Origin: Acetobacter okinawensis
GTDB lineage: Bacteria; Pseudomonadota; Alphaproteobacteria; Acetobacterales; Acetobacteraceae
Length of the DNA stretch: 34,260 bases
NCBI RefSeq assembly: GCF_002153655.1
Contig: NZ_JOPJ01000030.1
Span: forward strand, 1 to 34,260
Direction: 5' to 3'
Position numbers and translations under genes: made by a program. The notes beneath the pieces were generated by a model. It saw only the letters and a list, made by a program, of their open reading frames with translations, made no database searches and was not told the DNA's origin. Positions 10,837 through 12,013 of this stretch are shown here, one piece after another (positions within the stretch are counted from its first letter, which is position 1; each line of letters opens with the position of its first letter).

Positions 10837-11601
10837 TCAGTCTGCAACCGCGTGGAGCTGGAGCATGGCCGCTTCGGGCGGGACAGGCATCTGGGAAAGG
10901 GCGAGCAGGGGAGCAGGTACCGGCATTGCCTGCGGGTCATGCAGAATATAGCCCCGGCCCCATACGGTGGAGATCAGGTCTTCCGCCCCAACGGCTTGCA
11001 GTTTTTTGCGCAGTTTGCAGATAAAAACATCAATAATCTTGATGTCCGGCTCATCCCGCCCACCGTAGAGGTGGTTCAGGAATGTCTCTTTGGTCTGTGC
11101 AATGCCTTTGCGCAGGACCAGCAGCTCCAGAATGGCAAATTCCTTACCAGTCAGATGAATGGGTCGGTTTTCCACCGTGACTGTATGGTTGTTCAGGTTC
11201 AGGGTCAGTGAACCAACCTGAGCAATGGGGTGAGCATACCCGTTGGAGCGGCGCAGAATGGCCTGAACCCGCGCAATCAGCTCGGCTGTTTCAAACGATT
11301 CGGCCAGATAATCGTCCGCACCCAGCGCAAAGGCACGGATTTTAGCGTCTGGCGTATCAACATCGGAGAGGATGATGACCGGCGTTGCCACTTTGAGCGT
11401 CCGGAGTGTGTTAAGAATGGTATAACCATCCATATCCGGCAAGGTCGTGGTAATGATGGCGAGCCCGTAATCGTAATTGCGCAGCAATTCTATGGCGTTT
11501 TGCCCAGACCGAGCCAGGTCGGCGGCAAAGCCTGCTTTTTTCAGGGCGGAGAGAATGGCGCGGCTGGAGGTAAATTTGTCCTCGGCAAACAGGATGCGCA
11601 T
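10837..11601 (-). CDS. CtrA-family OmpR/PhoB-type regulator with degenerate receiver domain
   Basis: A protein of 254 residues. I take ATG 11601, preceded by GTGAGG, because its N-terminus aligns residue for residue with CtrA; the frame is open 12 codons further. The C-terminal winged-helix domain (about 130-225) is strikingly CtrA-like: HLTGKEFAILELL, ETFLNHLYGGRDEP, KIIDVFICKLRKKL and VWGRGYILHDP. The receiver (1-120) keeps the fold pattern (LPDMDGY, GADDYL) but lacks the chemistry. The phosphoacceptor position equivalent to CtrA D51 is Thr (run T51-T52-T53), acidic-pocket D9 is Lys, and the conserved Lys of the KPF motif is Glu101. A 30-residue Pro/Ala-rich tail follows. I infer a DNA-binding regulator that does not use phosphorylation, possibly a CtrA paralogue. 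Target genes are unknown. Confidence 0.9.
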   Translation of the reverse strand: MRILFAEDKFTSSRAILSALKKAGFAADLARSGQNAIELLRNYDYGLAIITTTLPDMDGYTILNTLRTLKVATPVIILSDVDTPDAKIRAFALGADDYLAESFETAELIARVQAILRRSNGYAHPIAQVGSLTLNLNNHTVTVENRPIHLTGKEFAILELLVLRKGIAQTKETFLNHLYGGRDEPDIKIIDVFICKLRKKLQAVGAEDLISTVWGRGYILHDPQAMPVPAPLLALSQMPVPPEAAMLQLHAVAD

Positions 11602-12013
11602 GACTGGCCTCACATAGCTGCAGAAAGGGTTATACACCTTGTGGTTGTATTTGTCGGCTTGGATAATACTTTTACGTGTTTTTCTGAAAAAATAAATACA
11701 AATTCATATTTTTTTATGATTTTTGTAATGACAGATATGTGAGCAACGAATGGCTTTGTGGCGCATATCCGGCAAAAAGCGTCTTGAGCTTTGCTGGTGA
11801 TGATACATGATTGCCGCGCGGAAACCACAAATAATAAAGTATTACAAAGTAATTTTTTTGGGATATTCTGGTCATAACCTCTAATAAGTTGTGTTATTTC
11901 TAACAAACGACCAGTTTGCAAAAAATTTACAATTTCAGTGCTTCACTCTTTTCGCCTCCCGCCTGATATGAAAAAGGACAATCCTGAACCTCTGGCGTGG
12001 GCAGGTGTCCATC
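11602..12013. promoter_or_regulatory. AT-rich divergent intergenic region with repeat operator candidate
   Basis: This 412-bp gap lies between the minus-strand CtrA-like gene and tsaE. It is clearly more AT-rich than the rest of the window, especially 11640-11940, and I see no convincing ORF. It includes the candidate minus-strand promoter, and a direct repeat AAAGTA at 11836-11841 and 11846-11851 (start-to-start 10 bp) that overlaps a perfect palindrome ATTAC-AAA-GTAAT at 11841-11853. OmpR/PhoB-type regulators typically bind direct repeats about one helical turn apart, so this could be an operator. No canonical CtrA box (TTAA-N7-TTAA) is visible. The tsaE promoter must lie here, but I could not place it with confidence. 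Confidence 0.5.
11629..11657 (-). promoter_or_regulatory. Candidate promoter of the CtrA-like regulator
   Basis: On the minus strand CCGACA (11652-11657) and TATAAC (11629-11634) are separated by exactly 17 bp, a good sigma-70-like arrangement. It would give a leader of about 20 bases before ATG 11601. Confidence 0.45.

Follow-up and report, generated by a model that had tools for sequence, protein, structure and literature searches.

CtrA is the textbook master regulator of the alphaproteobacteria and is driven by a phosphorelay. In the group considered here the relay has been reported as incomplete: a cluster of Rhodospirillales was described as carrying cckA with no ortholog of chpT, for which substitute phosphotransferases were suggested (Brilli et al., 2010; PMC2877005), and among Rhodospirillales genomes ctrA, gcrA, and ccrM were counted in 72–82% and chpT, cckA, and divL in 27–36%, which was ascribed to lower selection or to divergent, hard-to-detect homologs (Tomasch et al., 2021; PMC8116508). 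A regulator of the OmpR/PhoB type with a degenerate receiver is known from Helicobacter pylori, where HP1043 forms a dimer, as determined experimentally, and functions without phosphorylation (PMC8345958).

Certain substitutions in receivers have been reported to be activating, namely Asp to Glu at the acceptor position and D13K in CheY (PMC4671073); D13K was used in the double mutant D13K/Y106W, which is constitutively active (PMC11528121). The effect is not general, because EpsW was not activated by such changes in the former study (PMC4671073). For CtrA of Caulobacter, D51E is called phosphomimetic and delta3-omega stabilized, and replacement of the last three residues is given as stabilizing the protein (PMC12186491); the combined D51E-delta3-omega form is called stable and active (PMC5189948). 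Under ethanol/salt stress, Caulobacter forms multi-chromosome filaments, which the authors' model attributes to a stress-induced switch of CckA, and cells with CtrA(D51E)delta3-omega under that stress show no chromosome accumulation and arrest in G1 (PMC5189948).

A CtrA ortholog with an altered pocket in Acetobacter okinawensis

The window, i.e., the whole 34,260-nt stretch of an A. okinawensis contig that was analyzed, contains an intact ctrA-type reading frame (Table 1), flanked by phosphomethylpyrimidine-kinase and phosphoglucomutase-family genes on one side and by tsaE on the other; an Rfam scan returned tRNA only. PF00072 (Response_reg) and PF00486 (Trans_reg_C) both score above their cut-offs in the product, and the predicted secondary structure also fits a receiver and a winged helix of the OmpR type. 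Among NCBIfam models, CtrA (NF045991) scores best, at 300 bits, which is below the model cut-off of 350. In an ungapped alignment of residues 1–118 with the CtrA receiver of PDB 4qpj, Lys9, Thr51, and Glu101 face Asp, Asp, and Lys; positions 8, 9, 51, and 101 thus read D, K, T, and E, and the relay quartet D8/D9/D51/K101 is not intact. Lys9 occupies what we take to be the equivalent of Asp13 in CheY, so that CheY D13K would correspond to D9K here. The reading frame and the alignment confirm the three replacements recognized in the first-pass annotation, as well as its placement of the Thr51-Thr52-Thr53 codons (acc-acg-acc, 11451 to 11443 on the minus strand). The same three residues occur in a 99%-identical A. 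okinawensis gene (L075), and Thr51 is common to all eight distinct proteins of its subclade; a sequencing error or local mutation is therefore ruled out.

Table 1. Positions of the ctrA gene and of its product's domains and residues in the window.
Feature	Position	Strand	Basis
ctrA ortholog, 254 aa + stop	10837..11601	-	NCBIfam/Pfam, best genome match
Receiver domain, residues 1–118, fold predicted intact despite lost pocket	11248..11601	-	Pfam, prediction, 4qpj alignment
Lys9 replacing acidic-pocket Asp	11575..11577	-	codons, 4qpj alignment
Thr51 (acc) replacing phosphoacceptor Asp51	11449..11451	-	codons, 4qpj alignment
Glu101 replacing conserved Lys	11299..11301	-	translation, 4qpj alignment
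Asp96-Asp97, invariant in 32/32 distinct Acetobacter proteins	11311..11316	-	alignment
Arg111 to Arg118, both Arg invariant in 32/32 Acetobacter	11248..11271	-	alignment
DNA-binding domain, residues 129–222, with helix KIIDVFICKLRKKL	10936..11217	-	Pfam, alignment
C-terminal tail, residues 223–254, mostly disordered (predicted), ends Ala-Asp	10840..10935	-	prediction, alignment

The 2.72-Mb genome (147 contigs; completeness figure, 100%) yielded 13 matches to the window protein, which itself scores 549.7 bits and is the sole match at CtrA level; the next reaches 141.1 bits and is 36% identical. This second-best match (L002:1411-2211; contig C62:21237-21866) is a CtrA-like regulator whose receiver is weak, at 30.4 bits to Response_reg with a cut-off of 30.2. 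It lies about 700 bases from a gene that matches Bac_export_1 (flagellar-type export), presumably of the FliR-type export family, and we assume it to resemble the flagellar regulators FtcR and Rem.

Upstream of ctrA, an AT-rich leader (11602–11945) contains blocks that are conserved in seven Thr51-clade genes, and no CtrA box. It carries an inverted pair resembling GTGTTT...AAACAC at about 11671–11700, of which the window has an imperfect version; in six of the seven genes, GCAGCTATGTGAGGCC directly precedes the ctrA start. The full TTAA-N7-TTAA was found upstream of none of seven ctrA genes of the Thr51 clade and none of six from intact-receiver relatives, a test that is insensitive; among 29 Acetobacter genes examined, a full CtrA box precedes ctrA in three (L078, L082, and L084), all with Asp51. 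Genome-wide, the similarly insensitive search for TTAA-N(5-9)-TTAAC showed no enrichment (36 matches vs 45 for the reversed control), and the spacing was 7 in 5 of the 36.

Loss of the pocket across the lineage

The named relatives with at least 60% identity all belong to Acetobacter: A. okinawensis (99%), A. lambici and A. syzygii (91%), A. fabarum (89%), A. lovaniensis (84%), and, at 60–77%, A. garciniae, A. farinalis, A. orleanensis, A. persici, A. cerevisiae, A. pasteurianus, A. malorum, and others. The groups compared are non-random. The 24 intact-receiver Acetobacteraceae proteins belong to the top-scoring matches beyond the genus (best 9 or fewer candidates per genome scored), and 23 of their 24 genomes have a PF10090 match. 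Thirty genomes were the source of the 28 proteins from other genera of the family; 27 of these genomes were chosen as having no PF10090 match, and three have a weak one (G041, G049, and G231). The 30 are presumably genomes of other acetic-acid bacteria. The counts leave out repeats of identical proteins, an A. papayae locus with its N-terminus out of frame (L090; the 257-aa A. papayae protein is P0012), a fragment without most of the receiver (L198), a doubtful ortholog with 38% identity (L199), and L091, L093, L094, and L096.

The D8/D9/D51/K101 quartet is intact in none of the 32 distinct Acetobacter proteins, in one (L189) of the 28 from other genera, which were sampled mostly as lacking ChpT, and in all 24 other Acetobacteraceae and all 12 other alphaproteobacteria counted. 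Position 51 in Acetobacter is occupied by E (9), T (8), D (7), H (4), S (3), or N (1), and position 9 by K (14), D (8), N (6), H (2), E (1), or T (1); in the 28 proteins, position 51 is E (19), D (6), A (2), or N (1). Asp51 in orthologs of close relatives had been named beforehand as a sign of local mutation. It is kept in 7 of the 32 Acetobacter proteins, each with another pocket residue changed, and the reading as a local mutation is contradicted by the state of the whole lineage.

In a tree of 96 proteins, a single branch, whose support is not strong (93/75), separates 60 proteins (the 32 from Acetobacter and the 28 from other genera) from the 36 others. The intact or broken state of the quartet requires two changes on this tree vs at least 14 at position 51; the loss of the pocket thus seems to be old, and the acceptor position seems to have changed repeatedly afterwards. 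The tree contained CtrA proteins only and therefore provides no further test of orthology among regulator families. Four loci outside the counts (three from Acidisoma and one from a MAG; L091, L093, L094, and L096) retain Asp51 but differ at one or more of positions 8, 9, and 101. Milder erosion of the pocket therefore exists outside the counted groups and may represent an early step in the same development. The CtrA of A. tropicalis, and that of G008, lacks about 12 receiver residues (positions 79–90), including Ser79 and Lys87 (L089:6001-6633 and L029:1501-2142).

Conservation of the receiver, the DNA-binding domain, and the tail

Asp96, Asp97, Glu107, Arg111, Arg118, and Lys87 are residues that we take to form the α4-β5-α5 dimer face of OmpR-type regulators. 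The first five are invariant in the 32 distinct Acetobacter proteins, and position 87 is Lys in 30, with one Arg and one deletion. Among the 28 proteins from other genera, Asp96, Asp97, Arg111, and Arg118 are invariant and Glu107 is present in 27. Within the Thr51 clade, dN/dS has a median of 0.051 in the receiver, 0.035 in the DNA-binding domain, and 0.204 in the tail; receiver values in two ChpT-bearing trios are 0.15 and 0.19 (three pairs each), so the Thr51 clade is not higher. The receiver fold is predicted to be intact, with pLDDT mostly about 90; the pTM of the whole protein is only 0.50, in line with expectation for two domains joined by a flexible linker. With dimer-face residues invariant, dN/dS low, and the fold predicted intact, the receiver is, as judged from sequence comparison, under purifying selection and is maintained, not a relic. 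This supports the earlier suggestion that the three replacements represent purposeful divergence.

The recognition helix KIIDVFICKLRKKL is identical in 26 of the 32 Acetobacter proteins, the other six differing by one Ile/Val exchange, and in 23 of the 24 intact-receiver relatives, in keeping with the initial description of the DNA-binding half as almost a copy of CtrA. The same description had presented a Pro/Ala tail of about 30 residues as something not seen in CtrA, which was wrong: the 24 intact-receiver Acetobacteraceae CtrAs are 237–262 aa long, and the window protein, at 254 aa, is of ordinary length for the family. The tail, which evolves fast and is predicted to be disordered, is therefore rejected as a distinguishing mark. 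The extreme C-terminus is Ala in 24/24 of the intact-receiver relatives and Ala-Ala in 20/24. Ala-Ala ends 6 of the 32 Acetobacter proteins, all of them with Glu51 and with D8, D9, and K101 intact (L028, L030–L034), and most of the others end in Gly-Asp or Gly-Glu. An argument from loss of the C-terminal residues is weaker than it might seem because the CtrAs of other alphaproteobacteria end variably, with Ala-Ala in 1 of 12.

Relay partners

PF10090, the ChpT family, was matched in 185 of 299 genomes across the family at E <= 0.001, 174 of them above the cut-off (best 14 or fewer candidates per genome scored), and in none of 49 Acetobacter genomes. A family-specific profile built from ten ChpT proteins was tested on 70 genomes; it gave 133–212 bits in all three controls outside its construction and recognized no ChpT in the 67 others (37 Acetobacter and 30 further genomes), in which the maximum was 45.5 bits. 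The strongest of these weak matches sit inside long hybrid-kinase reading frames. On the tree, the losses of ChpT and of the pocket amount to practically a single event, and their coincidence is therefore no statistical correlation.

For CckA, the Brucella model NF046020 did not cleanly separate orthologs from paralogs (best 21 or fewer candidates per genome scored). A CckA-like clade is made up of kinases from five ChpT-bearing genomes. The two hybrid kinases tested, of 11 HisKA matches in the window genome, fall outside it, as do kinases of five further ChpT-bearing genomes, which are the best matches to the Brucella model and not necessarily each genome's CckA. With the best 19 or fewer candidates per genome scored, a profile of the CckA clade gave 454–651 bits in 7 of the 11 ChpT-bearing controls; in 10 of the 27 other genomes it reached 313–354 bits, which is the paralog range of the controls. 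At 1e-90 it matched none of 25 Acetobacter genomes, and 4 of the 11 controls likewise showed no clear match. CckA is probably absent from Acetobacter, although these four controls fail and cckA was reported as present in the Rhodospirillales cluster without chpT by Brilli et al. (2010). RcdA (PF07323) was found in none of 63 genomes, including 11 ChpT-bearing controls, and is therefore uninformative on this lineage. The proposal in the first-pass annotation that the protein could act irrespective of the CckA-ChpT relay is supported, in that ChpT was not found and CckA was not found either, the latter by an imperfect test.

A probable CtrA without a phosphate switch

The window protein resembles phosphorelay-controlled CtrA in domain order and in its near-identical recognition helix, and the best PDB match of its receiver is CtrA itself (4qpj). 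It differs in the replacement of Asp51, Asp9, and Lys101, in a C-terminal Ala-Asp instead of the relatives' Ala or Ala-Ala, and in the lack of a detectable ChpT and, in the 25 Acetobacter genomes searched as above, of a CckA-level kinase. The best explanation, to which we assign a good probability, is that of a single CtrA derived from a relay-controlled ancestor, which functions independently of phosphorylation and keeps its receiver as a dimerization module. ChpT, and probably CckA too, would have been lost in the lineage and the phosphorylation pocket dismantled. The receiver would have been kept folded and would presumably pair through its α4-β5-α5 face without phosphate; such a pair would keep the DNA-binding domains, which are nearly unchanged, on sites of the CtrA type, and CtrA output would be set by the amount of protein made. 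CtrA of the Acetobacter lineage probably works without a phosphate switch and, on our best reading, parallels HP1043 as a phosphorylation-independent regulator. HP1043, which we assume to be no ortholog of CtrA, differs in that its dimer is experimental, whereas that of the window protein is deduced from conserved residues.

It has to be asked whether the receiver is simply decaying in a lineage in which CtrA is becoming dispensable. Three of 25 genomes of the genus (that of the window included) have no match at 1e-40 (G012, G016, and G020), two of which, G012 and G016, are only 1.7 and 1.5 Mb in size; pocket residues vary, and mean column entropy is 1.07 in the receiver vs 0.55 in the DNA-binding domain (46 Acetobacter rows, repeats included). 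However, intact-receiver relatives show a similar, if lower, entropy ratio (0.50 vs 0.31), the receiver dN/dS of about 0.05 does not exceed that of the ChpT-bearing trios, the dimer-face residues are invariant, and the reading frames counted are uninterrupted over 240–272 aa, all of which makes decay unlikely. A role as competitor of a canonical CtrA at CtrA sites, proposed in the first-pass annotation and compatible with the nearly unchanged DNA-binding helix, is so improbable that we reject it: a second canonical ctrA was looked for and is absent at CtrA level, the next best match in the genome being only 36% identical, so that there is no canonical CtrA to compete with, and this closest other relative is itself a weak-receiver regulator. 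The same annotation had held that its reading would fall if the protein were the only CtrA and were shown to accept phosphate; of these two points, only the first, that of a single CtrA, is borne out here.

CtrA might instead still be under phosphate control, at a different residue or at Asp51 in the proteins that have it, if another phosphotransferase or kinase had replaced ChpT. Substitutes of this kind were proposed for genomes in which CtrA and CckA occur without ChpT (Brilli et al., 2010; PMC2877005), Acetobacter hybrid kinases weakly resemble ChpT (up to 45 bits), and seven of the 32 Acetobacter proteins keep Asp51. Yet the remaining 25 have Glu, Thr, Ser, His, or Asn at the acceptor position, those seven have another pocket residue changed, and the two kinases tested of the 11 HisKA matches lie outside the CckA-like clade of five relatives; we therefore regard such a replacement as quite unlikely.

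The preferred reading, that of a phosphorylation-independent CtrA, invites comparison with the activating alleles. Glu51 occurs naturally in 9 of the 32 Acetobacter and 19 of the 28 other proteins, and Lys9 in 14 of the 32 Acetobacter proteins. The reported alleles are engineered single or double changes, whereas those seen here are natural and accompanied by many others, and the window protein combines Lys9 with Thr51 and has no Glu51, in contrast to CtrA D51E. Acetic-acid bacteria live in ethanol. It is tempting to speculate, although we consider it fairly unlikely, that natural counterparts of an always-on CtrA (Glu51, Lys9, and loss of Ala-Ala) were fixed as an adaptation to this life: ethanol or acid stress would switch CtrA off via the CckA relay, and loss of the relay would lock CtrA on.

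Implications

The absence of ChpT from this group is already in print, and the loss of the receiver pocket is without an earlier report that we could find: a search of the literature, with most subscription journals outside its scope, retrieved no account of CtrA having lost its phosphoacceptor in acetic-acid bacteria. To the reasons given in the surveys for undetected ChpT, namely substitute phosphotransferases, lower selection, and hard-to-detect homologs (PMC2877005; PMC8116508), the receiver data add a testable further one, that CtrA in these bacteria is without the chemistry that requires a relay. Close species of Acetobacter with E, T, S, H, N, or D at position 51 constitute a natural mutant series for kinase independence.
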